A stretch of 18,267 bases of DNA from an uncultured beta proteobacterium (GTDB lineage: Bacteria > Pseudomonadota > Gammaproteobacteria > Burkholderiales > Burkholderiaceae_C). The translations under genes and the position numbers were made by a program. Location of the stretch: contig CAIXMC010000390.1 in the NCBI GenBank assembly GCA_903920405.1, positions 1-18,267 on the forward strand. The letters run 5' to 3'. Under the pieces are notes generated by a model. The model was not told where the DNA came from. It searched no databases and saw only the letters and a list, made by a program, of their open reading frames with translations. The number at the start of each line of letters is the position of its first letter. Within the stretch, counting starts at the first letter, position 1. Positions 1,326 through 18,267 of the stretch are shown piece by piece.

Positions 1326-1328
1326 TTA

Positions 1329-1487
1329 GGATGTGGTCAGTAATAAGTTCCCCATTTGGCTCGTCAGATTTGGGCGCACTGCGTCGTTACAAATCGCTTA
1401 TGTGGCATGGCCACACCGCGCGTTTTGCGCCTAGCATTGCATCCCAACTCTGACGGCCAAATGGGGAACTTATTACTGACCACATCC
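1329..1487 (-). mobile_element. 159-bp palindromic MITE-like element, full copy A
   Basis: Perfect 32-bp terminal inverted repeats (1329-1360 and 1456-1487) start GGATGTGGTCAGTAATAAG. The rest of both arms is also nearly complementary, and the exact centre is a TGTGGC/GCCACA stem tip around 1408, so a transcript would fold into one long hairpin. TTA flanks both ends (1326-1328 and 1488-1490), consistent with a 3-bp target duplication. No ORF of note is present. Read in reverse it matches copy D at 136 of the 137 visible bases and copy B closely. It lies between ilvN and ilvC inside the ilv gene run. Mobility is inferred from the structure; no transposase is in the window. Confidence 0.88.
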
Positions 1488-1513
1488 TTACCCCTCCCCC
1501 AAATAAATTCTAT

Positions 1514-1527
1514 TCCCCTAAAGGGGA
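1514..1527. other. Small hairpin downstream of ilvN
   Basis: TCCCC-TAAA-GGGGA forms a 5-bp stem with a 4-base loop, 33 bases past the ilvN stop. AT-rich sequence follows on both strands, but there is no clean T run. It could be a weak terminator or an mRNA 3'-end element for ilvN. Confidence 0.3.
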
Positions 1528-1560
1528 TGTTTTAAAACGGTTGGTTTTAGATAAATCAAA

Positions 1561-2052
1561 TCAAACCCGCAAAATACGTTCGCCCCGACCAATGCCGCAA
1601 GTGCCTGTGCGAACGGTTTCCAAGACCGCTCCCTGTTCCAGAGCGCTTAAAAAAGCATCATTTTTGCATTGGTCCCCTGTCAATTCAATGGTGTAACTTT
1701 TATCAGTCACATCAATAATACGGCCGCGAAAAATGTCGGCCATCCGCTTCATTTCCTCGCGCTCCTTGCCCACTGCGCGCACCTTGACCAACATCAACTC
1801 TCGCTCGGTGTAAGCACCTTCGGTCAAATCAACCACCTTGACGACTTCAATCAAACGATTCAAGTGTTTGGTAATTTGCTCGATAACATCATCAGAACCG
1901 GTGGTCTGAATGGTCATGCGTGAGAGACTGGGGTCTTCAGTGGGCGCAACCGTCAAGGACTCAATGTTGTAAGCACGCGCCGAGAATAAACCCACCACTC
2001 GAGACAATGCACCTGCTTCGTTTTCCAATAAAACTGCAATGATATGTTTCAT
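1561..2052 (-). CDS. ilvN: Acetolactate synthase, small regulatory subunit
   Basis: This is the 163-residue regulatory subunit (also called ilvH) of acetohydroxyacid synthase. In this family it activates the large subunit and binds valine for feedback inhibition. The N-terminal ACT domain is clear: MKHIIAVLLENEAGALSRV, with GLFSARAYNIESLTVAPTED following. The C-terminal half has the typical ELMLVKV, FRGRIIDV and GIGRGER motifs. A strong GGGGAG Shine-Dalgarno lies eight bases before the ATG at 2052. A nearer ATG eight bases upstream is out of frame. It follows ilvB by 84 bases on the same strand and is almost certainly cotranscribed with it. Confidence 0.96.
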   Translation of the reverse strand: MKHIIAVLLENEAGALSRVVGLFSARAYNIESLTVAPTEDPSLSRMTIQTTGSDDVIEQITKHLNRLIEVVKVVDLTEGAYTERELMLVKVRAVGKEREEMKRMADIFRGRIIDVTDKSYTIELTGDQCKNDAFLSALEQGAVLETVRTGTCGIGRGERILRV

Positions 2053-2073
2053 GATTCATGCTCCCCTTTTCTC

Positions 2074-2108
2074 CAATCCTCACCCAGTCACGGTAATGAC
2101 CAGGATTG
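2074..2108 (-). other. Inverted repeat in the ilvB-ilvN spacer
   Basis: CAATCCT (2074-2080) and AGGATTG (2102-2108) can pair as a 7-bp stem, with a GTCA/TGAC pairing inside. It sits just upstream of the ilvN ribosome binding site, so it could affect ilvN translation or mRNA processing. Function is not shown by the sequence. Confidence 0.3.
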
Positions 2109-2136
2109 ACGGGCAATAGATTCATCTTAAAAAAAA

Positions 2137-3945
2137 TTAATAGTCTTCAGAGCTGAGCAGCATCTCGGTAATGCCCTTGCCAGCTTGCACCATGGGGAAG
2201 ACGTTTTCGGTGGGGTCTGTGCGAAAGTCCATGAAAACAGTGCGGTCTTTTAATCGACGCGCTTCACGCAGCGCAGGTTCAACATCTTTGGCTTGCTCAA
2301 TCAACATGCCAACATGGCCATAAGCCTCTGCCAACTTCACAAAATCGGGCAGGGCCTCCATGTAACTGTGGCTATAACGACCACCATGTTCAATTTCTTG
2401 CCACTGCCGAACCATCCCCAAATAACGGTTATTGAGCACCATGATTTTGACGGGCGTGTTGTGCTGCAAACAAGTGGACAGCTCCTGAATACACATCTGT
2501 ACAGAACCCTCGCCACTCACACAAAAAACCTCGCTGTCAGGGTGTGCCATCTTCGCGCCCATGGCAAACGGCAATCCAACACCCATAGTGCCCAGACCAC
2601 CTGAACTGATCCAGTGCCGTGGCTGGTTGAAACGGTAATACTGTGCCACCCACATTTGATGCTGCCCAACATCCGACGTGATATAGACATCATCGTCACG
2701 TGTCATATTCCAAAGTGTTTCAACCACATACTGTGGCTTGATAATGCCATTTTGACCTGGGTTGTACTTCAGGCACTGGCCTTTGCGCCAGTCTTCAATG
2801 GTGTTCCACCAAGCGGCCTGTGTTACTGCATCGGGCTTGCCGTGTGTTTCATGAATCACAGCCAGCATGTCAATCAGAACGTCTTTGACATCCCCCACAA
2901 TGGGAATATCCACCTTGACGCGCTTGGAAATACTAGAGGGATCAATGTCAATGTGAATGATTTTGCGTTCATTTTGTGCAAAGTGTTTAGGGTTGCCAAT
3001 CACCCGATCATCAAAACGCGCACCCACCGCCAGCAAAACGTCGCAGTGCTGCATGGCATTATTGGCCTCGACCGTGCCGTGCATGCCGGGCATACCCAAA
3101 AACTTGCGATCGCTCGCAGGATACGCCCCCAAACCTGTCAATGTGCTGGTGCAGGGGCAACCCAAAAGATCGACCAACTGACGCAACTGCTCTGAAGCAT
3201 TGCTGAGAACCACGCCACCACCGGTATAAATATAAAGGCGTTTAGCTGCCAAAATGAGTTGCAGCGCCTTGCGAATTTGCCCTCCATGCCCTTTACGAAC
3301 GGGGTTGTAAGAGCGCATTTCAACCGTTGCAGGATAGCCGTGGTAAGGCACTTTTTTGAACGACACATCTTTGGGAATATCAACCACCACAGGCCCTGGC
3401 CGACCTGTGCGTGCAATATGAAAGGCTTTTTTCATGGTGATCGCCAAATCACGTACATCCTTGACCAGAAAATTGTGTTTAACCACAGGCCGGGTGATGC
3501 CCACCGTGTCGCACTCCTGAAAAGCGTCCATGCCAATAGCGGGCGTAGAAACCTGACCGCTCACAATCACCATGGGAGTGCTGTCCATGTAAGCCGTTGC
3601 AATGCCTGTGACCGCATTGGTGGCACCTGGGCCAGAGGTGACAAACGCCACACCCACATCGCCAGTGGAACGCGCATAAGCATCTGCTGCATGAACCGCC
3701 GCTTGTTCGTGGCGCACCAAAATATGCCGAATGGTGTCTTGCTTGAAAAAAGCGTCGTAAATATGCAAGACGGCGCCTCCAGGATAACCCCAGACAAATT
3801 TAACGCCTTCAGCTTCTAATGCCTTGATGAGAATTTCGGCACCGCGCAGCTCAGTTGGCGAAGCAACTGTAAAATTTTGGGCCAAGGGTTGAATGGGAGA
3901 GAGCGAAGAATCTGTCGCAACAGAATCGATTTGAGATATTTCCAT
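2137..3945 (-). CDS. ilvB: Acetolactate synthase, large catalytic subunit
   Basis: This thiamine-diphosphate enzyme condenses two pyruvates, or pyruvate and 2-oxobutyrate, in the first common step of branched-chain amino acid synthesis. The 602-residue product has the three expected regions. The N-terminal pyrimidine-binding domain has GYPGG and the catalytic Glu80 in VRHEQAA. A central domain follows. The C-terminal ThDP domain has SGEGSVQMCIQELST (Glu479) ending in LNN, then RYLGMVRQWQE. The usual GDGS is GEGS here, which I recall as common in betaproteobacterial homologues. About 30 extra N-terminal residues precede the conserved core (ELRGAEILIKALE). AAAGG lies six bases before the ATG at 3945. 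It leads the ilvBNC run and encodes the partner of the downstream ilvN product. Confidence 0.96.
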   Translation of the reverse strand: MEISQIDSVATDSSLSPIQPLAQNFTVASPTELRGAEILIKALEAEGVKFVWGYPGGAVLHIYDAFFKQDTIRHILVRHEQAAVHAADAYARSTGDVGVAFVTSGPGATNAVTGIATAYMDSTPMVIVSGQVSTPAIGMDAFQECDTVGITRPVVKHNFLVKDVRDLAITMKKAFHIARTGRPGPVVVDIPKDVSFKKVPYHGYPATVEMRSYNPVRKGHGGQIRKALQLILAAKRLYIYTGGGVVLSNASEQLRQLVDLLGCPCTSTLTGLGAYPASDRKFLGMPGMHGTVEANNAMQHCDVLLAVGARFDDRVIGNPKHFAQNERKIIHIDIDPSSISKRVKVDIPIVGDVKDVLIDMLAVIHETHGKPDAVTQAAWWNTIEDWRKGQCLKYNPGQNGIIKPQYVVETLWNMTRDDDVYITSDVGQHQMWVAQYYRFNQPRHWISSGGLGTMGVGLPFAMGAKMAHPDSEVFCVSGEGSVQMCIQELSTCLQHNTPVKIMVLNNRYLGMVRQWQEIEHGGRYSHSYMEALPDFVKLAEAYGHVGMLIEQAKDVEPALREARRLKDRTVFMDFRTDPTENVFPMVQAGKGITEMLLSSEDY

Positions 3946-4213
3946 GATAAACCTTTGTGAATTTCTCTAACGAAAAACCTTGGGTGCATCTTTGTAAACA
4001 CTTGTGGCGCTACATTGAAGCTTGAGGCCAAAACCATAAGCACAAGGATTGTTGTGCCGAACCTTGACCCGTTTGCATAAGTTGTAAACGCTATTATCGC
4101 ACTCCATCACACGGTCGCCCTGAAATCGTGCTGATGCGGGTGCGGTTCAAAGTAATGTGGAGGCTGCGATGTTCACCTGTAAAACTGCACGAACTGAGTG
4201 AATTTTTTTGTAT

Positions 4214-4270
4214 AACAAATCGGCCTCTAACGCCCGTCCCTATTGCGTAAGTAGCTATCTTTATAATAGT
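4214..4270 (+). repeat. Short intergenic repeat, copy 1 (TAAGTAGCTAT type)
   Basis: CCTC followed exactly 24 bases later by TAAGTAGCTAT and an AT-rich tail is shared with 11161-11220. Both copies share scattered bases (CCTC.AA.GC.C) before the conserved end, with a variable middle. From memory this resembles a common small intergenic repeat in Comamonadaceae genomes whose core is AGCGC-loop-GCGCAAGTAGCTAT; this was not searched. Confidence 0.5.
4262..4267 (+). promoter_or_regulatory. Candidate -10 hexamer upstream of the sigma-factor operon
   Basis: A perfect TATAAT lies 165 bases before the chosen start. The only TTG-type -35 (TTGCGT at 4243) is 13 bases away, which is too close, so this is weak. 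The hexamer also lies inside the short repeat and may be chance. Confidence 0.25.
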
Positions 4271-4308
4271 AAAATTAACATCGATTTATTCGCAGCGGTA
4301 GATAGGTA

Positions 4309-4337
4309 GAGACGAAGTTATTCGCACGACTCGTCTC
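4309..4337 (+). other. Leader hairpin before the sigma-factor gene
   Basis: GAGACGA (4309-4315) and TCGTCTC (4331-4337) form a perfect 7-bp stem with a 15-base loop. It is in the presumed 5' leader about 95 bases before the start codon. It could be an mRNA structure or a protein-binding site; no T run follows. Confidence 0.35.
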
Positions 4338-4431
4338 CTTGTATGTGGCCATGTTGACTGCTCCACATCACTTTGACGCTTTTTCGAACGCTGCACCACG
4401 ATGCCCTTTGACTTGCCCCAAGAGAATTTAT

Positions 4432-4998
4432 TTGGCCACTCCTACTGAACTTTCAGATTTTTTGAAGAGCGTCGAAAAACGTGCCTTCAAACGTACAGCC
4501 TACAACGTTGGCAACAATGAATCAGCTCTCGACATTGTTCAAGACAGCATGATGAAACTCGCAGAGCACTACGGTGATAAGCCCACTAACGAACTTCCCA
4601 TGTTGTTTGCGCGCATTTTGGGCAACACTACATTGGACTGGTTTCGTCGACAAAAAGTCAAAAATGCCTTTTTCTCATCGTTGAGCGATTTTCAATCTGA
4701 CCCTGATGACACTGAATCTGATATTCTGGAGTCCTTGTCATCTACAGAAACGTCTTTGGTATTTGAAAACCCACAAACCACTGCAGAGCGTACTGAAACC
4801 TTGCAAATGATTGAAAAAGCGCTGTTATTATTGCCTACACGTCAACGAGAAGCCTTCCTCATGCGTTACTGGGAAGGTATGAATGTTTTAGAAACCGCAT
4901 CTGCAATGGGTTGTTCTGAAGGCAGTATTAAAACGCACTGTTCTCGGGCAGCTCAAGCCCTGTCCCGTGCTCTTCATGCCAAAGGACTTACACCATGA
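4432..4998 (+). CDS. RNA polymerase sigma factor, sigma-70/ECF type
   Basis: This is a small two-domain sigma factor that would direct RNA polymerase to a specific promoter set. Region 2 is seen in SALDIVQDSMMKLAEHYGD and TTLDWFRRQKVKNAFFS. Region 4 is a helix-turn-helix near the C-terminus: LPTRQREAFLMRYWEG, then ETASAMGCSEGSIKTH. I chose the TTG at 4432 (188 residues): AAGAGA precedes it, and LATPTELSDFLKSVEKRAFKR aligns with remembered family members that begin MAT.ELSDFLKSVEKRAFKR. An ATG at 4351 or TTG at 4339 would add 27-31 unconserved residues without a ribosome site. The stop overlaps the next start (ATGA), so the downstream DUF3619-like membrane protein is a candidate regulator of this factor. 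Confidence 0.85.
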   Translation: MATPTELSDFLKSVEKRAFKRTAYNVGNNESALDIVQDSMMKLAEHYGDKPTNELPMLFARILGNTTLDWFRRQKVKNAFFSSLSDFQSDPDDTESDILESLSSTETSLVFENPQTTAERTETLQMIEKALLLLPTRQREAFLMRYWEGMNVLETASAMGCSEGSIKTHCSRAAQALSRALHAKGLTP

Positions 4999-5441
4999 AT
5001 ATCAATACTTCAGAGCAATCACGGCAAGCCTCCATAGATCAATTTGGCCGGCAAATCTGTCTTCAACTGGATGCCACCTGCCAACACCTGCCTTACGACA
5101 TTTCAGAGCGTCTGCGTGCAGCAAGGGTCAGGGCTGTTGAAATGCGCAAACAGGTGTTGCTGGCATCGGCTCAAGTTTCTTATGCCAACACCTTGTCTAA
5201 CACTCTGACAGCGCAGCATGGTGGGCATCATTCTCCCTGGTGGAGTCGCCTTGGTGTTGCTGGTTTGCTGCTGCTGTTGCTTACAGGGCTGTTGATCATT
5301 AACATTGTTCAAGACGACCTCAGTGCGCGTGAACTTGCAGACATTGACACCGCCATCCTGACCGACGATCTTCCCCCTGCAGCTTATATTGATGTTGGTT
5401 TTGCGCAGTTTTTGAAACTTGGCAACTCACAGGAACCCTGA
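4995..5441 (+). CDS. DUF3619-like single-pass membrane protein, possible anti-sigma factor
   Basis: This is a 148-residue protein. The cytoplasmic-type N-terminal half contains FGRQICLQLDATCQHLPYDISERLRAARVRAVE. One transmembrane segment follows at about residues 84-104 (LGVAGLLLLLLTGLLIINIV), then a short tail ending DLPPAAYIDVGFAQFLK. The organisation matches the DUF3619 family as I remember it, which is found beside sigma factors in Burkholderiales. No biochemical function is established that I know of. The 4-base overlap with the sigma gene implies translational coupling. That, together with the membrane anchor, makes an anti-sigma role reasonable but unproven. No zinc-finger anti-sigma motif (HxxxCxxC) is visible. 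Confidence 0.8.
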   Translation: MNINTSEQSRQASIDQFGRQICLQLDATCQHLPYDISERLRAARVRAVEMRKQVLLASAQVSYANTLSNTLTAQHGGHHSPWWSRLGVAGLLLLLLTGLLIINIVQDDLSARELADIDTAILTDDLPPAAYIDVGFAQFLKLGNSQEP

Positions 5442-5442
5442 A

Positions 5443-6180
5443 GTGTTTAAATTGACCTTGCAACACCTTTGCTGTTTCCCTGTCATCACGTTGACGCTTT
5501 TGACAGCGATGTCGATGGTCACGCCAATCTGGGCACAATCGAGCACACAGGGCAAGCCGCCCGTTGCCACCTTGAGTCAACAGCGTTCCACAAGCACCCG
5601 TTCGGTCACCGTTTTGGGCAATGCCATCCCTGCTGCTTTTTCTTCAATGGATTGGAGTGCATTAACACCAGAACAGCAAAACGCACTTCAGCCTCTTTCT
5701 GCCACCTGGAAAAACATCAGCAATGTTCAAAAACGCAAGTGGATATCGCTCAGTGCCAACTATTCCCAAATGACATTGGCTGATCAGACCAAGGCACATG
5801 CACGCATGGCACAGTGGGCAGCTCTTAGCCCGCGCCAGCGCGAACAAGCCCGACTGAACTTTGCCGAGGTCAAAAAAGTGATGCCGTCACAGGAAAAAAA
5901 TGAGAAGTGGATAGCCTACCAAGCCCTGAGCACCGAGGAAAAGAAAAAACTGGCCAAATCAGCACAATCCAAGCCACCTCACACAGCCTTGGCGGCGCAA
6001 CCCTCAGCGCCAGACAAACTCAGTCGATTGCCTTTGAAAAAAAATGCCAGACCGCCTGTTGCGCCAGCATCTGCGGTGTTGCCTAACCCGCCGTTACCCA
6101 CCAGTCCTGCCGCCTCTGCTGCCGCTGCCGCTTCATCGGCTGTGTCAGCGCCTGTGATGCGTGCAAGCTCTGCTTCATAA
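5443..6180 (+). CDS. DUF3106-like secreted protein
   Basis: The 245-residue product starts at a GTG two bases after the previous stop, with AGGA eight bases before it. The N-terminus is a signal peptide: a hydrophobic run through ITLTLLTAMSMV with likely cleavage after IWA. The central part (about 65-160) has the Trp-rich repeats of DUF3106: DWSALTPEQQNALQPLSATW, then MAQWAALSPRQREQARLNF and KWIAYQALSTEEKKKLAK. The last ~80 residues are low complexity, rich in Ala, Pro and Ser. It is predicted to be periplasmic. It probably forms one operon with the sigma factor and DUF3619-like gene, and may act in the same signalling or envelope-stress pathway. The role is unknown. Confidence 0.82.
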   Translation: MFKLTLQHLCCFPVITLTLLTAMSMVTPIWAQSSTQGKPPVATLSQQRSTSTRSVTVLGNAIPAAFSSMDWSALTPEQQNALQPLSATWKNISNVQKRKWISLSANYSQMTLADQTKAHARMAQWAALSPRQREQARLNFAEVKKVMPSQEKNEKWIAYQALSTEEKKKLAKSAQSKPPHTALAAQPSAPDKLSRLPLKKNARPPVAPASAVLPNPPLPTSPAASAAAAASSAVSAPVMRASSAS

Positions 6181-6226
6181 CTGATGACTCAGGGAATATC
6201 AGTAGATCAGTAGGTATGGGCGGGAT

Positions 6227-8291
<2,065 letters not shown>

Positions 8292-8322
8292 GGTCTGATC
8301 TGACAAATAAACACCCGACACG

Positions 8323-8808
8323 TCAGGAGACCATACCAAGTTCAGCGTGATTAAGCAAAGATTCAATATTCATCACGATCAAGGTGCGATCGCCCAAATG
8401 AACCAGACCGGTGATAAAACGGCTGTCCAGCACAGATTCAAACTGCGGTGCAGGTTTGATCGACTCGGCCTTGATGCTGACCACATCGGACACAGAATCA
8501 ACCACCACGCCAATCACCGTGCCATGCACTTTCAAAATAATCACTACCGTGAACTCGGTGTACTCTGCACGGGGCAAATTGAGCTTGAGTCGCAAATCCA
8601 CAATAGGAACAATAACGCCCCTCAAGTTGATGACCCCCTTGACAAACAGAGGGGCATTGACCATGCGGGTAGGCTCTTCATAGGAGCGAATTTCCTGAAC
8701 CTGCAATATGCCAATAGCGTACTCTTCAGAGCCAAGACGCAAACTCAAGTATTCACCCTCATTGGCCTTGGCAGTGCCAGAGCGGGTTGTGTTTGGTTTT
8801 CGGTTCAT
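8323..8808 (-). CDS. cheW: CheW-like chemotaxis coupling protein
   Basis: CheW couples chemoreceptors to the CheA kinase at the inner face of the membrane. The 161-residue product has the CheW fold motifs in order: GEYLSLRLGSEEYAIGILQVQEIRSY, then NAPLFVKGVINLRGVIVPIVDLR, then FTVVIILKV, GVVVDSVSDV and a C-terminal GDRTLIVMNIESLL. There is no receiver domain, so it is CheW and not CheV. I chose the ATG at 8808 because AGGA lies eight bases before it; two other ATGs upstream overlap that site. No other che gene is nearby. It is an isolated cheW upstream of nadE, but a large chemoreceptor lies about 5.4 kb away. Confidence 0.92.
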   Translation of the reverse strand: MNRKPNTTRSGTAKANEGEYLSLRLGSEEYAIGILQVQEIRSYEEPTRMVNAPLFVKGVINLRGVIVPIVDLRLKLNLPRAEYTEFTVVIILKVHGTVIGVVVDSVSDVVSIKAESIKPAPQFESVLDSRFITGLVHLGDRTLIVMNIESLLNHAELGMVS

Positions 8809-9035
8809 GAACATCATCCTTTGAAAAAATGGGTAAAAACAAAACTATCGCCGCAATCATCCGATGCTAATACATGCAATCACATCAAAAACAGCATTTT
8901 TAGAGGTAAAGTTCGCCCATTCGCCAATTGCCGACGTCAGCACGTCTTTTGGTGCCAGTCGGCGATAGCGAAATTCTGCAGGGGTGCATTGATAAGATGC
9001 ACCCTATCTTCTCGACCAATCAACAGGAAAATTTT

Positions 9036-11111
9036 ATGACAGGCAACTCAGCGCTGATACTGGCGCTTATCTGCGGCTTGATCGCAGTCGGCTATGGCTT
9101 TTGGGCACGAAGCTGGATACTCTCTCAAGACGCTGGCAATCAGCGAATGCAAGACATCGCCAATGCCATTCAGACCGGTGCATCGGCTTACCTTGCGCGG
9201 CAATACAAAACCATTGCCATTGTCGGCGTGGTACTGGCTGTTTTGATTGGCGTATTTCTTGATCACCTTAGCGCCGTTGGTTTTGTGCTGGGTGCAGTGC
9301 TCTCTGGAGCCTGTGGTTTTATCGGTATGAATGTTTCGGTTCGTGCCAATGTGCGAACCGCGCAGGCTGCCACCAAAGGCATTGGCCCTGCGTTGGATGT
9401 GGCTTTTCGTGGAGGTGCCATCACCGGTATGCTGGTGGTGGGGCTGGGGCTTTTGGGTGTCACCGGTTTTTACTGGTTTTTGACAGGCAATAGCGATGCA
9501 CCCAACGCCAAACTGGCCGAAATGCTCAACCCCTTGATTGGTTTTGCCTTTGGTTCTTCCCTGATTTCCATTTTTGCCCGTTTGGGCGGTGGAATTTTCA
9601 CCAAAGGCGCAGACGTGGGTGCTGACCTGGTGGGCAAGGTTGAAGCCGGCATTCCCGAAGACGACCCCCGCAACCCTGCCGTGATTGCCGATAACGTAGG
9701 CGACAACGTGGGCGACTGCGCTGGCATGGCAGCAGACCTGTTTGAAACTTACGCCGTCACGCTCATTGCCACCATGGTGCTCGGTGCTTTGATGGTGACA
9801 GGTGCAGGCATCAGTGCTGTGGTCTATCCGCTGGCGCTGGGTGCTGTGTCGATTGTGGCCTCCATCATTGGCTGCTTCTTTGTCAAAGCCTCGCCAGGCA
9901 TGACCAACGTGATGCCCGCCCTTTACAAAGGTTTGGCCGTCGCGGGGGCGCTGTCACTGGTGGCTTTCTTTTTTGTGACTCAAAACTTGCTGCCCGCCAC
10001 CCTGACACTCACAACCGGTCAAGTTATCTCTGGCATGAGCTTGTTCTACGCATGTATCGTAGGTTTGATGCTGACTGCCGCCTTGGTATGGATTACCGAG
10101 TATTACACCGGCACCCAATACAAACCCGTACAGCACATCGCTGAGGCTTCCACCACCGGTCATGGCACCAACATCATTGCGGGTTTGGGCGTGTCCATGC
10201 GCTCAACCGCCTGGCCTGTGATGTTTGTCTGCGTGGCCATTTACACCGCTTACGCATTGGCTGGTCTTTATGGCATTGCCATTGCGGCGACCTCCATGCT
10301 GAGCATGGCAGGCATTGTGGTCGCCCTGGATGCTTATGGCCCTATCACCGACAACGCAGGCGGCATTGCCGAAATGGCTGAAATGCCCAAGAGCGTACGC
10401 GACATCACTGACCCCCTGGATGCCGTGGGCAACACCACCAAAGCAGTGACCAAAGGTTACGCCATTGGCTCTGCCGGTCTGGCTGCACTGGTTCTTTTTG
10501 CCGACTACACCCATAAGCTCGATGCTTATGGCAAGGTGATCACCTTTGATTTAAGCAACCACATGGTCATCATTGGTCTGTTCATTGGTGGCCTGATTCC
10601 TTATCTCTTTGGCGCCATGGCGATGGAAGCCGTAGGCCGTGCCGCAGGTGCTGTGGTGGTCGAAGTTCGCCGCCAGTTTCGTGACATCAAAGGCATCATG
10701 CAAGGCAAAGCCAAGCCTGATTACGGCACCGCCGTTGATATTTTGACCACTGCTGCCATCAAGGAAATGGTCGTACCGTCCTTGTTGCCCGTGGTTGTAC
10801 CTATTTTGGTAGGGCTGATATTGGGGCCTGCAGCTTTGGGTGGCTTGCTGATGGGCACCATCGTCACGGGCTTGTTTGTCGCTATTTCGATGTGTACCGG
10901 CGGCGGTGCCTGGGACAATGCCAAAAAATACATTGAAGACGGTCATTTTGGTGGCAAAGGCTCAGAAACCCACAAAGCAGCCGTGACCGGTGACACCGTA
11001 GGCGACCCCTACAAAGACACCGCAGGTCCAGCCATCAACCCGCTGATCAAAATCATCAACATCGTGGCTCTGTTGATTGTGCCGTTGATGATGAAGTTTC
11101 ACGGCATGTAA
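9036..11111 (+). CDS. hppA: K+-independent proton-translocating membrane pyrophosphatase
   Basis: This integral membrane enzyme hydrolyses pyrophosphate and pumps H+ across the membrane. The 691-residue product has many hydrophobic segments (the family has 16). The substrate site is clear: [11 protein letters not shown] (193-203), then [20 protein letters not shown] and [14 protein letters not shown]. The second cytoplasmic cluster has [17 protein letters not shown], and the third ends with [21 protein letters not shown]. Lys469 in [10 protein letters not shown] is the known mark of the K+-independent H+ pumps; K+-dependent ones have Ala there. I chose the ATG at 9036, preceded by AGGAAA, since the open frame upstream is not conserved. 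It appears to be a single-gene unit. Confidence 0.96.
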
Positions 11112-11131
11112 CTGTCTTTTCTACTTTGCAT

Positions 11132-11156
11132 CATGCTGTCAACCTGTGACAGTATG
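11132..11156 (+). other. Stem-loop downstream of hppA
   Basis: CATGCTGTCA and TGACAGTATG form a 10-bp stem with one mismatch and a 5-base loop, 20 bases after the hppA stop. There is no T run, so it may be a non-canonical 3'-end structure or a protein-binding palindrome. Confidence 0.4.
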
Positions 11157-11160
11157 GTGT

Positions 11161-11220
11161 ATCAAAACACCCTCCAAGGCGCACAGAGTAAGCATAAGTA
11201 GCTATTTATTAGATAGCATT
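11161..11220 (+). repeat. Short intergenic repeat, copy 2 (TAAGTAGCTAT type)
   Basis: Shares CCTC and, 24 bases on, TAAGTAGCTAT with 4214-4270. Here the tail GCTAT-TTATTAG-ATAGC makes a 5-bp hairpin. Same orientation relative to the plus strand as copy 1. Confidence 0.5.
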
Positions 11221-11306
11221 TTCAATCAGATCATCTGCAGGAATTGTGGCGGGTCACTGTCAAAATAGCTCACCATCTACAACTCATCGTTATTGAGTCC
11301 CTAGGC

Positions 11307-11409
11307 GGATAAGGTCAACAATATATTTCGCTTGTGACCGTCAGAGTTGGGATACAACGACGCAGTGCGCCAAAATCTGACGAGCCAAAAGCGCGGTATC
11401 GACCTATCC
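11307..11409 (+). mobile_element. Diverged, internally deleted 103-bp MITE copy E
   Basis: Internal blocks CCGTCAGAGTTGGGAT, ACGACGCAGTGCGCC and AATCTGACGAGCC are those of the 159-bp element. About 50 bases of the centre are missing, including the hairpin tip. The ends (GGATAAGGTC and GACCTATCC) are still inverted but differ from the usual GGATGTGG repeats. The left end shares GTCAACAATA with copy B. No 3-bp flanking duplication is seen. The right end lies 62 bases before the likely start of the GH17-like gene, and the open frame of that gene extends back into this element. Confidence 0.75.
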
Positions 11410-11471
11410 TTATATATTTCACGGGTGTGTCGTGTGGTCATCTTCTTATTTTTCTCATGCAAAAGCCATTT

Positions 11472-13931
11472 ATGGGTTCTATTTTTAAACGAGCTGTTTT
11501 TTTGACGATGTTCTGGTGGCTACACACCGGCATGGTATTCGCTTCAAATTTCATCGGCTTGTCACCAGGCTGGAATCTGGTCGCCAACAGTAAGACCACA
11601 CCTATCATCACAAATTCTCAACTGAATGGTTCCGCAAAAATCACATCGGTTTGGAAATGGAACACACTTGACCAAAAATGGGCCTTTTACAGCCCCTTCA
11701 TGACATCGGATCAGTTGACTGCTTTCGCGCAAAGCAATCGCTACGATGTATTGAACAGCATTAGCCCCAAGGAAGGTTTTTGGGTCAATGCAGCTGGGAC
11801 TGGTTCCTTGGCAAACTTCATTGAGCCGCCAGATGTCAACGCTACCGTGGTATCGCTGACTGCACAAGACCTTGTGCCTGGCTGGAATCTGGTGGGCAGT
11901 GCAGACCATCAAACGGCCTGCCAAATTCATGGCCGTTTGAACGACAGCCTCAATGCCGCCGGTAAAACCATCAAGTCTGTCTGGGCATGGAATGCGACCA
12001 GCGCACAATGGCATTTGTATGCACCTTCACTGGAGAATACAGGGGGCACCGTGGCGGCGGATGACATCCCCAACCTGTCTTATTTGCCCCTCAACGTGGC
12101 AATGCCCTCCACAGAAGGTTTTTGGGTGAACGTGGGGGTTGTAGTTCCTGCCTTGCCGGTCGTGACCCGTCGCGTTGGAGCGCTTCGGCCATTGCCCGCA
12201 GAATTCACCACCAGAAAAGCTGTGAATTACGGACCCTACCGCACATCCAAAAACAAAGGACATCCCTGTCAAACCGAAGTGACGACTGCCCCCCTGGATG
12301 TCACAAAAACCATCACACGAATTGTGCTTGGTGAAAATGGTCAGTGCGTTCTTGACCCTACAGACATTGCGAACGAAGTGATCACAGATGAAATGATTGC
12401 ACAGGACATGCACCTGCTCTCTCTGGCCGGCTTTGGTCTCATCAGGTTGTTTGACAGTTCAATGAAACTGGCAGAAAGAACGCTACGCGTCATCAAAACC
12501 AACAACCTGGACATCAAGGTGATGCTGGGTGCTTTTGTTGACGACTATCCCCCTTCGCCGGTAGATCCCTCGTGCGTTTTGCCCTCTTCGTCTGTTGAGA
12601 GCAAAGCGGAAATTGCCAGGACGGTTGTGCTGGCCAATGCTTATCCTGACATTGTGTTGGCAGTCAGCGTGGGCAATGAAACCATGGTGTCATGGTCCAC
12701 CGCGCCAGTTTCATCTGCAAAAATGGCTGCCTATATTGCCAAGGTACGCAGTCAAATCAGCCAGCCGGTCACGTCAGACGACAACTGGGCGTTTTATGCC
12801 AATCAACCCAACATGCCCTATGACACAGATGTCATTTTGAACGCGGTGGATTTTGTTTCCATGCACACCTACCCAGAGCTAGACACCATTTACAACCCCA
12901 CTTTATGGGATTGGCGGCAGTTCCAGGTGGCCGAATCTGCACGCGCACAGGCCATGATGAATGCTGCCATCGTATCGGCCAAAAACGAGTATTTTGCTGT
13001 TCGTACCTACTTGGACGCTAAAAATCTTTCAGCCATGCCCATCGTGATTGGTGAAACAGGCTGGAATGCCGTGAACACAGGCAAACTGCCGTTTTTGGCA
13101 CACCCCGTCAATCAAAAAATGTATCTGGACAAACTACTGGCCTGGGCCAACGAAGGGCGAACCGGTGCCGGCCCCAAAGCCGTTTTTTACTTTGAGGCTT
13201 TTGATGAACCCTGGAAACAGGGTGATGACAAATGGGGGCTTTTTAACGTTGATCGACAGGCTCGTTACGCCCTTGCCGGTGTTCAGCCCACAGGTAATGT
13301 CGCATGGGTGAACGAACCTGCCACCTACACCGATGCCGATGCTGTCCATTGGGTCATGCCCACCGTGCATGTGCCTGTGGATGCTACCCAATATGCCCGA
13401 TACAAAGTGTATGCAGATGCAGTGGCAACTGCTGATGTGTTTGTGGATTCTGCACTGGGGTGGTGGCCGTGGGACTCGACGATGGTGGGAAATGCCAACT
13501 TTGCCGGCACAGGCGATGGCCCTTACGCTTTGGAAATCAAACCCACACCGGCCCAGTGGGGTTGGGGAATGTCTTTTGGAGATGTCGCACCCGCCAACCT
13601 GTCCGAGTTTGCAGCAGGGCATGTGCAGTTTGACATCAAAACCACTTACCCGGGCACGATTGAGGTCGGCCTTCGCACAACAACCCAAGACAGCCAGATT
13701 GTTGAGGTATTTTTAGCCTTGAAGTCTGGCGACTACGGTTATTGCAACACCAACACCTGGTGTCATGTGTCCATTCCCTTGGCAGACCTGGTGAAAGGCA
13801 GCAATGCCGACTTGACAATGCTGGTGGATCGATTTGTCATTGCCGACCGGTTTGACATCACGGGCAAGGGCACCGGTACTGCCGAGCTACCTCCTGTTTA
13901 TATTGACAACATTTATATTTCACGCGACTAA
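11472..13931 (+). CDS. Secreted GH17-like glucan-active enzyme with N-terminal repeats
   Basis: An 819-residue protein from the ATG at 11472. It begins with a signal peptide (MGSIFKRAVFLTMFWWL, cleavage likely near VFA-SN). Two repeats follow at about 27-115 and 130-225, each with PGWNLV, then a SVW.WN box and EGFWVN. A glycoside hydrolase family 17-like TIM barrel covers about 250-600: VNYGPY start, acid/base Glu403 in VGNET, nucleophile Glu528 in IGETGW, then YFEAFDEPWK and WGLF. The last ~165 residues are a beta-rich domain resembling carbohydrate-binding C-terminal modules. GH17 enzymes act on beta-1,3-glucans, as hydrolases or transglycosylases. The start is uncertain: ATG 11457 and GTG 11334 are in frame, but none has a good ribosome site, and the GTG frame is translated from MITE sequence. 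Confidence 0.8.
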   Translation: MGSIFKRAVFLTMFWWLHTGMVFASNFIGLSPGWNLVANSKTTPIITNSQLNGSAKITSVWKWNTLDQKWAFYSPFMTSDQLTAFAQSNRYDVLNSISPKEGFWVNAAGTGSLANFIEPPDVNATVVSLTAQDLVPGWNLVGSADHQTACQIHGRLNDSLNAAGKTIKSVWAWNATSAQWHLYAPSLENTGGTVAADDIPNLSYLPLNVAMPSTEGFWVNVGVVVPALPVVTRRVGALRPLPAEFTTRKAVNYGPYRTSKNKGHPCQTEVTTAPLDVTKTITRIVLGENGQCVLDPTDIANEVITDEMIAQDMHLLSLAGFGLIRLFDSSMKLAERTLRVIKTNNLDIKVMLGAFVDDYPPSPVDPSCVLPSSSVESKAEIARTVVLANAYPDIVLAVSVGNETMVSWSTAPVSSAKMAAYIAKVRSQISQPVTSDDNWAFYANQPNMPYDTDVILNAVDFVSMHTYPELDTIYNPTLWDWRQFQVAESARAQAMMNAAIVSAKNEYFAVRTYLDAKNLSAMPIVIGETGWNAVNTGKLPFLAHPVNQKMYLDKLLAWANEGRTGAGPKAVFYFEAFDEPWKQGDDKWGLFNVDRQARYALAGVQPTGNVAWVNEPATYTDADAVHWVMPTVHVPVDATQYARYKVYADAVATADVFVDSALGWWPWDSTMVGNANFAGTGDGPYALEIKPTPAQWGWGMSFGDVAPANLSEFAAGHVQFDIKTTYPGTIEVGLRTTTQDSQIVEVFLALKSGDYGYCNTNTWCHVSIPLADLVKGSNADLTMLVDRFVIADRFDITGKGTGTAELPPVYIDNIYISRD

Positions 13932-13946
13932 AAACTTGAACATTAA

Positions 13947-14105
13947 GGATGTTGTCAACAATAAGTTCCGCATTTGGCCGTCAGAGTTGGGAGGCAATGC
14001 TAGGCGCAAATCGCGCGGTGTGGCCATGCCACATAAGCGATTTGTAACGACGCAGTGCACCCAAATCTGACGAGCCAAATGGGGAACTTATTACTGACCA
14101 CATCC
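13947..14105 (+). mobile_element. 159-bp palindromic MITE-like element, full copy B
   Basis: Same length as copy A and opposite in orientation. The 32-bp ends (13947-13978, 14074-14105) are inverted with four mismatches, all in the left end (GGATGTTGTCAACAATAAG). The stem tip TGTGGC-CAT-GCCACA is exactly central at 14026. TAA flanks both ends (13944-13946 and 14106-14108). It differs from copy D at six of 137 comparable bases. It starts 15 bases after the GH17-like gene and lies between that gene and the convergent chemoreceptor gene, where its hairpin could end transcripts from both sides. Confidence 0.88.
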
Positions 14106-14186
14106 TAAAGTACCGTTTACCGTTATGGCTATAGAAGGACAAAAATGATGAGTCAGGTATATCAGCAATTTCCATCTCCCTAAACA

Positions 14187-17117
14187 TCAAGTGCCCAAAC
14201 GCGTGGGTGCTGCAATCAAGGGCTTGATTTCTGAGCTTTCAGTCTTGCTGCGGCGATCATAAACAGGAACGTCATCCGTCTTGAAAAATGCAATGCTTTG
14301 CTGCAATTGCTCAGCCTGTCCCGATAACTCTTCACTGGTAGCGGCAAGCTCTTCAGAAGCACTCGCATTTTGCTGGGTGGCTTTGCTCAGTTGCCCCATA
14401 GCCCCTCCAATCTGCATGATGGATTCGCTTTGTTCAGAACTGGCGGCTGCAATTTCCTGCACCAATTCTGAAGTTTTTTGAATGCTGGGGACAATCGCAT
14501 TGAGCAATTGGCCTGCAAGCTCCGCAGTGGTGACGCTGCTGCCTGCCAGTTCACCAATTTCTTTGGCAGCTTCCTGACTGCGCTCGGCGAGTTTGCGCAC
14601 CTCGGCTGCTACAACGGCAAAGCCTTTTCCATGCTCACCAGCACGGGCAGCTTCAATGGCGGCGTTCAATGCCAGCAGGTTGGTTTGGTAAGCAATATCA
14701 TCCACAATGCTGATCTTGGATGCTATTTTTTTCATAGCTGTCACTGTCTGACTGACGGCGCTTCCACCCTCGACAGCCTCTTTTGTAGCCTTGGCCGCCA
14801 TGCCATCGGTGACCCTCGCGTTGTCGCTGTTTTGGTTGATGGATGCTGACATGACGTCTATGGAAGCGCTGGTTTGCTCAACGCTTGAGGCTTGTTGGCT
14901 GGCGGATTGCGAAAGACTTTGCGCAGTGGCACTGACTTGGTTGGCCGCGGCGGTCAGCGCATCGGCTGCTAAACGAACTTCCGTAATGACCCGGGTCAGG
15001 TTGTCTGAAGATGCATTGACGCTGTCTTTGACTTTGCCGAACAGGCCCTGGTAATCTTGGGTGATGCGCTGAGTCAGGTCGCCTTCTGCCACAGCAGCAA
15101 GCACACGGGCAACGTCGCTCAAGCCCTGCTGGCTGGTCTCCAGGAGTTGATTCATGCCAGTAAAAATTTTGGCAAAGAAGCCCGTTTTTCCATCCAATGT
15201 CAGTTTGCCGCTGAAATCTCCACGGGACGCGGCGTTCACCACGTCATCAAGTTCTTGCTCTGAGGCGATCTCGTCGGTGCGATCAAGCCATTGGGTAATG
15301 CGTCCAATGGGCTGGCCATTGCTGTCGGTCACAGGACTGGCCAATAACCTGAGTTTGTGACCATTAATTTCCATGTCCATGGCGTCTCCGGTACGCACAG
15401 CTTGGTCAAAGCGTACAGCATCATCCGTTTCCTTGAACAGGCTTGAGAGTTTGTTGCCATAAAACTTGTGGATATCAAAAGCAGGACCGCCAAACAGTTT
15501 GAGCAGTTCTTTGGCCGATGGTGTTGCATGAACCAGCATGGCCTTTGCATTGGAAATTGTCACGCACACCGGCAGGCTGTCCAGCGACAAGCGGATGCGC
15601 TCGTTAAAACCTGCTGCCTCGGCAGCATCTCGCAGCGACTGCTGAACCTTGTCTATCGCATGACAGACGCGGGCTTTCTGACCCGGCAAACGATCCATGG
15701 CCACGTCAAGCCTGCCTTCGGTGTAACCGGTCACCACTTCAACCAATTTCATCATGACACTGATATGTGTCTGCATCACTTCATTGATGGAATCGGCCAT
15801 GGTGGCATACGCATCCGGCAGACCCTGGGTGGACATGCGGTAGTCCAACATGCCTGCACCATGTTGTTGTGCCAGTTCGTCTTGCGCTGTCTGAAACTGT
15901 GTCAGTACGCTTTGCATATCAATCAGCGAGTTGAGCACATGGGCAAGTTCATCACATCCAAACGGACGCGATGGCATGTCGCTCAAATCGCCACCGGCAA
16001 TCTTTTGCAAGTGCTTGTCAATCAGACGCAAGCCACCGCTGGTCACCAAATAAAAACTGTAAAACAGATAGGCTGCCAAGAACAAAATCACAGTGATCAC
16101 ACTAAAAATTGTCAAGTTTTGAACCTGCATGTCGCGTAATCTTTGTACCAGTAAATCATTGAGCAATGGCACAGTCTGCTCAAAAGTTCGGCTAAAACCT
16201 TCAAATGCCTGGCCTCCGTTATCCCACAGTGCGTTGGCAGTTTGTACGTCTTCCTCCATGACAGATTTGTAGGCACGTGCTCGATAGGCTTCAACCTGCT
16301 GGAATGCTGACAGATCGAGTTTGGCCTTGAGTTCAGGCTGATAGGCCACAATTTTTTCAACGTAAGCGTTGACATCCTTCACGTCCGAGCGAAGTTGCGC
16401 ATCCCACACAACGTATCGAAATACGGCTTTGTGACGATCGGCAGCAGAGATGCTGCCAGCCGTGGATGCCAAGTAGGTGCTCCAAGCTCTGATCTGCCCC
16501 AGATTTTCCTGAATAACGGGCAACTTTTGCGCCACCACCAGTCCCAGATACAGCGTGTCCATTTGAGGGTCCAACACCAAACCAGAACGATCCGATATGC
16601 GCGACAAAAGTGAAATGCCAGCATTGGTGACAGGCACAAAAACCGTACTTTGACCACTGGCATCCAGTCCATTGCCTGATTTTGCCGTTTCATTCCATGT
16701 TTGGCGCAGATTATTGAACGCTTCACGAATCATCAACGGGTCTGCTGAATGAGTCAGTTCCTGGTCCAGCCTGGCAAACATGGCATCTGCATTGCTGCGA
16801 CTGGCTTTGTAGGCATCCAAAGCATCAAAGCCACCGATCATGGCCCGGGTTGCGTTTCTAGCGATCACCAAATGCTGGTTGAGCGGCACAAATGATCGTA
16901 AAACACTCACGCCCTCAATTTCGTGTTGAGTATTGCGCCGGTTGTTCAGAAAGGATTGGGTGGCAGACCAGCCCAACAAAAGAATGGGGATCACAAAGGC
17001 AAGGCTAATCACAGAGGCCTTGGCAGAAAACTGCAAGTTGCCCATCAGCCTCATGCCGGGGCCAAGTATCCCGGCAGGACGCAATGCGCTGTGTGATTTG
17101 TTTGCATAATCAATCAT
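14187..17117 (-). CDS. Methyl-accepting chemotaxis protein with internal PAS domain
   Basis: A 976-residue inner-membrane chemoreceptor. Transmembrane segment 1 is at about 33-50 ([16 protein letters not shown]), then a ~280-residue helical periplasmic sensor, then segment 2 at about 335-358. A HAMP-like region follows ([16 protein letters not shown]). A PAS-like domain lies at about 505-620 ([14 protein letters not shown] to [13 protein letters not shown]). A further HAMP-like linker has [18 protein letters not shown]. The coiled-coil signalling domain carries the conserved hairpin tip [20 protein letters not shown] near residue 825. No C-terminal NWETF-type methylase-docking pentapeptide is present (it ends RLGT). 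I chose the ATG at 17117 because GGA precedes it and a longer N-terminus adds no recognisable sequence. The ligand is unknown. Confidence 0.92.
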
Positions 17118-17290
17118 ATAAATTCCAATTGAGTTGTAACTTCTTGTTAAATGATGTCGCAGCAGCAAAAATCTGTGTTGCGAATGAATATTGACAGTGG
17201 CAAGAGGGTGTTGGTCAGTGAGACATGATTTTGTAACTACTGCCAAAAAGAGATGCAGCAGCGCACTTTGGGATCAAAGCGATGCTTTTG

Positions 17291-17358
17291 GGATGTGGTC
17301 AGTAATAAGTTCCCCATTTGGCTCATCAGATTTGTAACGACTCAGTACCCCCAAATCG
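17291..17358 (-). mobile_element. Truncated and rearranged MITE copy C
   Basis: It begins with an intact 32-bp terminal repeat (GGATGTGGTCAGTAATAAG to TTTGGC, 17291-17322) in the orientation of copy A. After CAGATTTG the next segment reads TAACGACTCAGTACCC and then CAAATC. That is the reverse complement of the order in copy A, as if the stretch between GATTTG and CAAATC had flipped. Similarity stops at 17358; the other half is missing. No TWA flank is seen at the left. Confidence 0.8.
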
Positions 17359-17478
17359 TAACCGTTTGGACCCCGCCTGGTTCATCCATGTCCTCATGGT
17401 GAAAGGTTTGGGTGTCAAAATGAACCTCGAAACTTTAGTTGTAAAAATGCAAAACAACCTGTGAAAAAATCAAGCTAT

Positions 17479-17511
17479 AAACATTTGCTTAACCAGTTTA
17501 CAAAAATGTTT
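17479..17511. other. AT-rich inverted repeat
   Basis: AAACATTT (17479-17486) and AAATGTTT (17504-17511) are an 8-base inverted repeat with a 17-base spacer. It is possibly a binding site or a weak structure; low information content. Confidence 0.25.
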
Positions 17512-17670
17512 TTGAAATCAATCATTTAGAGAGTTGAATAACGGCGTTAAATGGCAACAACAGGTTTTTTTTATACATAAGTTGTTGATTTATAAAAGAC
17601 ATACGGAATGAATTTACCGAATGTTTACATCAGGTCTGAGGGAAAATCATCAAAGACGTTGCATTGAAAC

Positions 17671-17676
17671 TATAAT
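17671..17676 (+). promoter_or_regulatory. Candidate -10 hexamer for the lipoprotein gene
   Basis: A perfect TATAAT lies 96 bases before the lipoprotein ATG. No -35 match is present at 16-18 bases upstream, so this would need an activator or is chance. Confidence 0.28.
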
Positions 17677-17772
17677 TTGTTGCAGGGCGAAAGGCTTCAT
17701 GGCTTCTCAGTCCGGTGTTTTGTGGTTTCACACAGAATCAAGTTTTAATAATTTTCATATCAGGTGTTTCAA

Positions 17773-18036
17773 ATGAATAAATCTCTCGTTTTGTTGGCTG
17801 TGGTCGCAGCAGCAGCTTTGTCTGCATGCGGTAACAAAGAAGAAGCTGTCCCCGTTCCGCCTCCCGTGACTGAGACCGCACCTGCTCCGTTGGTTGCACC
17901 AGCGCCGGCTGCTGCGGTCGTCGCACCTGCCTCTGCTGCATCAGAGGCAGCATCTGCAGCCGAACCTGTTGCATCTGCGTCCTCCACGGACACAGCAGCT
18001 CCCGCAGCTCCAACATCCGAAGCTCACAAAAAATAA
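17773..18036 (+). CDS. Small Ala/Pro-rich lipoprotein
   Basis: An 87-residue predicted lipoprotein. The signal is MNKSLVLLAVVAAAALSAC with a canonical LSAC lipobox, so Cys19 would be lipidated and the protein anchored in the membrane facing the periplasm. The mature part starts CGNKEEA and is then almost entirely Ala, Pro, Val, Ser, Glu and Thr, ending in SEAHKK. This composition suggests an extended or disordered tether and not an enzyme. The ATG has AGG eight bases upstream; a GTG three codons earlier is less likely. A strong terminator follows 21 bases after the stop, so it is probably a single-gene transcript. I do not recognise a named family, and similar low-complexity lipoproteins are common in this group. 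Confidence 0.82.
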   Translation: MNKSLVLLAVVAAAALSACGNKEEAVPVPPPVTETAPAPLVAPAPAAAVVAPASAASEAASAAEPVASASSTDTAAPAAPTSEAHKK

Positions 18037-18057
18037 AAATTAGTCGCGATGGGCGCA

Positions 18058-18081
18058 AGCCACCTAAGGGTGGCTTTTTTT
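18058..18081 (+). terminator. Intrinsic terminator of the lipoprotein gene
   Basis: AGCCACC (18058-18064) and GGTGGCT (18069-18075) form a perfect 7-bp stem with a TAAG loop, followed directly by a run of T to 18081. A textbook rho-independent terminator. Confidence 0.93.
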
Positions 18082-18130
18082 ATGGATGGTCACCTTCGTG
18101 TAGATGCCAATCCATGACGGTTAAGATTTA

Positions 18131-18267
18131 GGATGTGGTCAGTAATAAGTTCCCCATTTGGCCGTCAGAGTTGGGATGCAATGCTAGGCGCAAATCGCGC
18201 GGTGTGGCCATGCCACATAAGCGATTTGTAACGACGCAGTGCGCCCAAATCTGACGAGCCAAATGGG
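18131..18267 (+). mobile_element. 159-bp palindromic MITE-like element, copy D (cut by window end)
   Basis: The first 137 bases of the element are present, in the orientation of copy B; the last ~22 bases lie outside the window. The left terminal repeat (18131-18162) is identical to that of copy A. TTA precedes it (18128-18130). Only one base differs from copy A over the shared part (AAATCGCG against AAAACGCG). It lies 49 bases after the lipoprotein terminator. Confidence 0.87.

Follow-up and report, generated by a model that had tools for sequence, protein, structure and literature searches.

Non-autonomous transposons (MITEs) are understood through their ends, since a transposase needs those ends. 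Correia elements, which are short repeats of Neisseria, have a TA target duplication and ends other than those described below. REP and REPIN sequences are accompanied by a linked RAYT gene, and the spread of REP is not known to make a target duplication. In integron attC sites, the R-box reads GTTRRRY / RYYYAAC.

The family analyzed here is short, repeated, and transposon-like, as Correia elements are. This likeness, proposed in an earlier note made from the sequence, holds for the shape only; the duplication is 3 bp (TWA) rather than TA, and the ends resemble those of the ISAzo13 family. As with REP and REPIN sequences, the elements are intergenic hairpins, some of them with double inverted cores, but they have target duplications and transposon ends. 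Furthermore, the hairpin shares with attC sites a variable tip and fixed unpaired bases, but on inspection its core consensus GTTGCAA does not fit GTTRRRY. In the literature, a passage of PMC10969869 gives more than 120 copies for the Correia elements, and PMC3733652 contains none of six beta-proteobacterial terms. No title or abstract opening among the papers listed describes the present family, from which we do not claim absence from print.

Copies in the window and in the host genus

The window, i.e., the whole 18,267-nucleotide stretch analyzed, is contig C390 of a host assembly of 2.68 Mb in 458 contigs with 89.8% completeness, and its genus is, by inference, Rhodoferax. The window holds three full-length copies of the element, the last of which runs into the contig end, together with a truncated copy and a degenerate piece (Table 1). 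The earlier note had placed the three full-length copies correctly. Its truncated copy at 17291-17358 is indeed truncated, with an alignment that ends at 17334, and its short form is a related piece that is degenerate, aligned only in its middle and flanked by GGC and TTA, i.e., with no duplication, so that 103 bp is at most a putative size class beside 159 bp. A single base in 137 separates copies 1329 and 18131, which agrees with the difference reported between copies "A and D" if D is copy 18131 and not otherwise; copy 1329 differs from copy 13947 at 7 of 159 bases, and copy 13947 from copy 18131 at 6 of 137. The 32-bp terminal inverted repeats attributed to the full copies are exact in copy 1329 and have four mismatches in copy 13947. 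A 19-bp end with up to three mismatches occurs six times in the window versus none in 200 shuffles.

Table 1. Coordinates of the element copies and their parts in the window
Feature	Coordinates	Strand	Remarks
Full copy, 159 bp	1329..1487	+	Between ilvC (249-1292) and ilvN (1561-2052), names from reading of translations
Left target duplication TTA of copy 1329	1326..1328	.	Flank sequence
Right target duplication TTA of copy 1329	1488..1490	.	Flank sequence
Left terminal inverted repeat of copy 1329	1329..1360	+	32 bp exact
Right terminal inverted repeat of copy 1329	1456..1487	-	32 bp exact
Hairpin core of copy 1329	1365..1454	+	Model R1, 86.8 bits, self-inclusive because R1 was built from 34 rows with this copy among them
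Full copy, imperfect ends	13947..14105	-	Flanks TAA (13944-13946) and TAA (14106-14108)
Hairpin core of copy 13947	13980..14069	-	Model R1, 77.7 bits
Copy cut by contig end	18131..18267	-	TTA at 18128-18130
Hairpin core of copy 18131	18164..18253	-	Model R1, 86.2 bits
Truncated copy, first 44 bp	17291..17334	+	Alignment; sister genome G122 has a match beside the same gene
Degenerate short piece	11307..11409	-	11356-11389 at 97% identity to the element

The whole element folds into a single hairpin (-111.1 kcal/mol, z -15.4, on the minus strand; -103.6 kcal/mol, z -14.7, on the plus strand). What had been called a nearly perfect palindrome is thus one hairpin over its whole length but an imperfect palindrome, with only 104 of 159 ungapped positions matching its own reverse complement. 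A scan of positions 1200-1620 for promoters and terminators gave no signal within copy 1329. An 865-aa open frame (11334-13931) has its mechanical start inside the degenerate short copy; its real start is probably further in.

In the host genome, patterns with up to three mismatches gave 261 end matches and 150 centre matches, versus 0 and 0 for the patterns read backwards, which bears out the expectation of further copies. The 150 centre matches are an upper bound, as copies split across contigs may be counted twice, and we estimate roughly a hundred copies or more; the forecast of hundreds of copies is unproven, given 150 centre matches and possibly fewer real copies. Copy counts, alignments, and target duplications together support the description of a mobile, noncoding, structured element repeated more than 100 times. 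Six contigs (C442, C443, C444, C447, C448, and C450) start at one point within a copy, with its centre at bases 34-66, so the repeat fragments the assembly.

When the window copy was used as query, matches were found in 17 of the 59 other genus genomes and in none of 40 genomes representing other families of the order; a copy from a relative matched 26 of 89 genus genomes, the host genome counted. An exact core pattern retrieved 32 stretches in records titled Rhodoferax sp., "Comamonadaceae bacterium CG2_30_57_122," or "uncultured beta proteobacterium." The elements are mostly 159 to 160 bp long with matched ends. The window element had no match in plasmids, neither the element nor the core matched phages, and exact core patterns gave 0 and 0 hits in viral contigs.

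Of the 118 distinct Rhodoferax sites, 8 fall within a mechanical open frame, and the 77 sites with both neighbors comprise 43 tandem, 25 convergent, and 9 divergent gene pairs. At the ilvN-ilvC spacer of other Rhodoferax (19 loci), the element is in none of the 7 readable spacers. The stretch 1282-1557, element included, is missing from sister genome G122, where the flanks are 97 to 98% identical; this is not a clean empty site, as the G122 spacer lacks about 117 bp beyond the element, and the comparison of G122 loci with loci of the host genome found no clean empty site either. Five ilvN-ilvC spacers of other Rhodoferax (L231, L232, L237, L238, and L243) carry short palindromic repeats GGGACAGA..TCTGTCCC that seem to form a further intergenic family. 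At two further loci, L030 and L044, copies sit in the tip of other copies at CCACA|TAA|GCG, as illustrations only, with AAA as the left flank in L030 and no right end in L044.

Target duplications and the candidate transposase

For the count of target duplications, copy boundaries were left as BLAST gave them, without refinement; among the 88 hits in the host-genome loci, 45 were full, and 43 of these had 20-bp flanks. Identical 3-bp flanks were found in 36 of the 43 (10,000 permutations gave a mean of 18.5 and at most 30), as TAA (19), TTA (15), TCA (1), and CAA (1). Among copies with TAA or TTA on both sides, the two were equal in 34 of 38 (P = 6e-7 against one half). The copies are thus short, noncoding, and numerous, with terminal inverted repeats and target-site duplications; they are MITEs, non-autonomous transposons that make no protein. 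An autonomous partner with the same ends was not found via PF01609, PF13340, PF13586, or PF07592 in host genome G000, which is not decisive since that genome is incomplete. In the fetched loci, inverted end pairs 500 to 3500 bp apart numbered six, all between element copies or a degenerate end.

An IS5-family partner was tested first, prompted by the TNA duplication. Searches with PF01609 (12 genomes), PF13340 (60), and PF13586 (18) gave no element with the ends of the Rhodoferax copies. IS5-family elements of the genus do make TWA duplications, which favors a transposase of this family (IS1031 group) as mover of the Rhodoferax copies, but ten IS5-family ends begin with GA and score -2.3 to -38.1 against the profile of element ends. 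Furthermore, PF13340 and PF13586 have no match in the host genome, and its single PF01609 match (L080) is without such ends. The Rhodoferax copies do not have the ends of the IS5/IS1031 group, an IS5 partner would need ends GGATGTGGTCAGTAATAAG, and we consider this disfavored reading very improbable. In the single-contig genome G038, 7 of 11 IS5-family matches reveal elements of 910 bp whose ends read GAGCCTATTTC and whose duplications are TAA or TTA.

The ends of the Rhodoferax elements vary between species and mostly match within one element (GGATGTGGTCA, GGGCTTGTTCA, GGGCTCGTAAA, GGATGTGGCAA, and others), and most elements have AATAA at end positions 14 to 18 (96% mean identity). Four Rhodoferax ISAzo13 elements (L173, L175, L176, and L186), those whose two ends could be located, are flanked by TTA on each side and carry AATAA or TATAA at the same positions. 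The ends of L175 are GAGCTTGTTAACAAATAACC and GGATATGTAAATAAATAACTTGTGCATTTAG, the right one having 24 of 31 bases in common with an element end. Five transposases from the search score 573 to 596 bits against NCBIfam ISAzo13 (NF033519; cut-off, 200). Of 13 ISAzo13 ends scored with a profile built from 41 ends of the element, three (33.7, 22.6, and 22.5) ranked higher than every one of 3098 background TNAG sites; each of the remaining 10 was equaled by 1 to 85 of those sites. The five best background sites (12.9 to 17.2) lie in other loci of the ISAzo13 search, and the next best scored -2.3. The MITEs therefore have both the end register GG-N11-AATAA and the TNA duplication by which an element mobilized by ISAzo13 would be recognized.

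Thus, the elements resemble the ISAzo13 family (PF07592, NF033519) in the TTA/TAA duplication, in the register GG-N11-AATAA or TATAA, and in similar sub-terminal bases. Unlike the MITEs, three measured ISAzo13 elements are 1297 to 1314 bp long (L176, 1310; L186, 1297; L173, 1314), the five open frames are 411 to 422 aa, and no core was found inside ISAzo13 elements with model R1 (81 sources). Matches to R1 in these sources were 16.9 bits outside the element of L176 and 22.2 bits in L081, a PF01609 locus, and BLAST of the core against ISAzo13 loci gave a best E of 0.52. Among six plasmid elements, two (Mesorhizobium; one annotated as ISAzo13 family, the other in an unannotated record) have TAA duplications and ends GGRYNYGT, and four from Streptomyces have no clear ends.

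PF07592 had no match in the host genome or in sister G122, both fragmented assemblies, an absence that could be an artifact because such assemblies can lose repeated elements. Across 89 genomes, the transposase (13 genomes) and the element (26) were not associated, with the element in 4 of 13 genomes with the transposase and 22 of 76 without, and the genomes searched yielded no autonomous element whose ends are identical. From the copies, their ends, the target duplication, and the end register common with ISAzo13 elements, all of them observed, we infer that an ISAzo13-family transposase is the likeliest mobilizer. It would move the MITE in trans, recognizing ends GG-N11-AATAA, and would duplicate a 3-bp target, mostly TAA or TTA; in this lineage, such a partner would carry ends GGATGTGGTCAG..AATAAG.

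Conservation and pairing of the core

Among 21 diverse Rhodoferax elements, mean pairwise identity is 92.5% in the left core (columns 43-75) and 80.1% in the right core, 63 to 65% in columns 31-42 and 132-146, and 51.9% at end positions 3 to 13. The central hairpin of about 80 bp is better conserved than the ends, which is unexpected because a MITE needs its ends. When the best-paired reading was chosen per element, the paired tips of 118 distinct elements included TGTGGC/GCCACA (60), TGCAGC/GCTGCA (27), TTTAGC/GCTAAA (12), TTTGGC/GCCAAA (3), and TGTAGC/GCTACA (2). A tree built without the tip gave 8 tip-type changes among 105 elements with perfectly paired tips, 13 elements being left out. 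Covariation of inner pairs in the Rhodoferax alignment was 0.179 versus 0.092 in shuffles, with no excess of further pair types (14 versus 13.7).

Of the 34 cores in alignment A2, 6 come from Rhodoferax and 28 from the 39 loci of the family-wide search (L303, L318, and nine near-duplicates omitted). In it, 94.6% of cells are paired, and 15 of 23 pairs have changes on both sides; covariation is 0.373 versus 0.091 (sd 0.011) in shuffles and at most 0.108 when the partner is slid by 1 to 3 columns. Changed cells number 105 on both sides versus 2 one-sided, with 42 cells unpaired. A T-G pair (columns 24/67) is invariant in 34 of 34 cores, as are a bulged T (column 25) and the unpaired C and T of columns 69 and 70; the unpaired C of column 22 is present in 33 of 34, and the other loop positions are variable. 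The paired changes could come from copying of one arm to the other without selection. The fixed unpaired bases speak against simple homogenization of the arms.

The strong covariation and the fixed unpaired positions would also suit a structured RNA, such as an RNase III target or an mRNA stabilizer, whose pairing is selected on transcripts. The surroundings of the copies speak on both sides of this possibility. Neighboring genes read into copies in 91 cases and away from them in 55, and the copy follows the direction of the tandem genes in 20 of 27 sites of Rhodoferax other than the host (P = 0.019), but over all sites the two orientations are balanced (25 of 43 tandem sites, P = 0.36; 48 of the 91 reading-into cases), with the opposite lean in the host genome (5 of 16, P = 0.21). 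With the invariant pair set aside, G-T pairs account for 7 of the 706 standard core pairs (1.0%) versus 13 of 210 (6.2%) in ten tRNAs from the loci examined, and mismatched cells are commoner (42 versus 0). The scarcity of G-T pairs against this small tRNA control is a hint of pairing as DNA rather than RNA. Rfam gave no match to the element and four to 20 other loci, all under gathering scores. We therefore regard selection on transcripts as improbable. The best of the four Rfam matches is FMN riboswitch-like and lies beside a core (L298:501-676; 55.4 bits versus a gathering score of 66.2).

The likeliest way for the core to persist would be a function as a folded single strand of DNA, in which the fixed mismatches would mark one strand. 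Such a folded core may help the element to be mobilized or tolerated.

The core with other ends outside Rhodoferax

In the family of the window, which we take to be the Burkholderiaceae, the element consensus matched at least 74 of 399 genomes and at least 45 of 141 genera, its own genus counted; these are lower bounds, as two candidates were scored per genome. Among the matches listed in this search, most span the core alone. The core is common to elements with other ends in other genera, which is invisible from the window alone. Forty stretches were taken from these matches, and 39 yielded the core by BLAST. Matched ends with an exact canonical duplication (TNA or YTAR) were found in 10 of the 39 loci, with lengths of 158 to 166 bp, or 265 to 267 bp for the L300/L301 class. 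L300 and L301 have CTAG duplications and ends GGCGTGTCATCC or GGCGTGTCATCA, and L312 has CTAG with ends GGCCTGTTCACGC. The duplication is TCA in L314, with ends GGATTTGGCCCG and AATAA in register, and in L315, with ends GAACCTGTTCAA, and it is TGA in L335, with ends GAGCGTGTTTACGA. L320, L322, L328, and L333 have ends GGCAACGCTGAA or close variants and the duplications CTAG, CTAA, TTAG, and TTAG, respectively. The remaining 29 loci showed nothing, or chance-like pairs, with no exact canonical duplication. Because elements of about 160 bp in other genera combine the same core with different ends and different duplications, core and present ends are separable.

A search with the core also matched nine plasmid records, from Cupriavidus, Comamonas, Diaphorobacter, Mitsuaria, and the alphaproteobacterium Martelella, with no annotated feature beneath any of the nine matches. 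In all seven plasmid stretches examined, model R1 finds a core (48.2 to 86.2 bits), and the Comamonas stretch has two cores, ends GAACGTGTTTACGA, and TAA duplications. A plasmid search with the YTAR end gave one weak match, in a propionyl-CoA synthetase gene, and no partner.

A second, inverted core was detected in four of six larger stretches of the L300/L301 class (L337, L339, L340, and L353) and in L343, but not in L338 or L341. Paired inverted cores about 111 bp apart (in these five loci and L357) are what a REP/REPIN-like unit would show, with its own hairpin-recognizing enzyme and transposon ends added later. Cores without recognized transposon ends in L305, L325, L359, and L360, possible solo hairpins, fit the same view. 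Against this, clear ends come with a target duplication, and we judge a REP-like origin still less probable than selection on RNA.

To follow the ends along the core, a tree was built from 26 cores with assigned ends (8 ISAzo13-type, 15 YTAR, and 3 IS1031-type), although it rests on about 90 bases and is weak. It requires five end-type changes, counting labels without an exact canonical duplication (L124, L297, L299, L304, L309, L311, L326, L329, L330, L334, and L358), versus a mean of 9.7 and a minimum of 7 with shuffled labels; 98 of 100 bootstrap trees gave 5 or 6, and ISAzo13 against the rest gave 2 or 3 changes. The ends thus track the core lineage in part, with several changes. Firmer than these changes is the presence of both 3-bp and 4-bp duplications in each of the two main core lineages.

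This partial tracking is also expected of an ordinary ISAzo13-derived MITE, in which the shared core would go back to one old family that diverged deeply, its ends drifting with their transposases, without any exchange. Among the 10 exact-duplication loci, 8 keep a length of 158 to 166 bp, which agrees with such descent. However, ISAzo13-type and IS5-type ends belong to different transposase families, and the first 12 bases of L315, GAACCTGTTCAA, are shared with an end of the IS5-family element L151. L315 shares its TNA duplication and this end with L151, as an IS5-family MITE would, a kinship that the Rhodoferax copies lack. Since both duplication lengths moreover occur in both core lineages, we consider divergence without exchange rather unlikely, albeit the strongest of the competing accounts.

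The best explanation as a whole, which we hold to be probable, is a MITE moved by an ISAzo13-family transposase and containing, between its ends, a conserved hairpin core of about 80 bp that is separable from its present ends and, judging from the weak core tree, has been re-ended several times. More tentatively, and with rather less than even confidence, the identity of these elements may lie in the core and not in the ends. The core would then be an old DNA hairpin, with its invariant T-G pair, bulged T, and fixed loop C and T, putatively recognized by a protein and carried by transposases of two families or more (the ISAzo13 and IS5 types and, in addition, the YTAR type), its ends being swapped while a length of about 160 bp was kept.

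These results emphasize that here the middle is conserved and the ends differ among relatives. If the core is selected, small bacterial transposons would carry a function independent of their transposase, and the genera bearing the core would be natural experiments on non-autonomous elements that switch transposase. The repeat breaks the host assembly, and many related genomes may likewise contain it without annotation.
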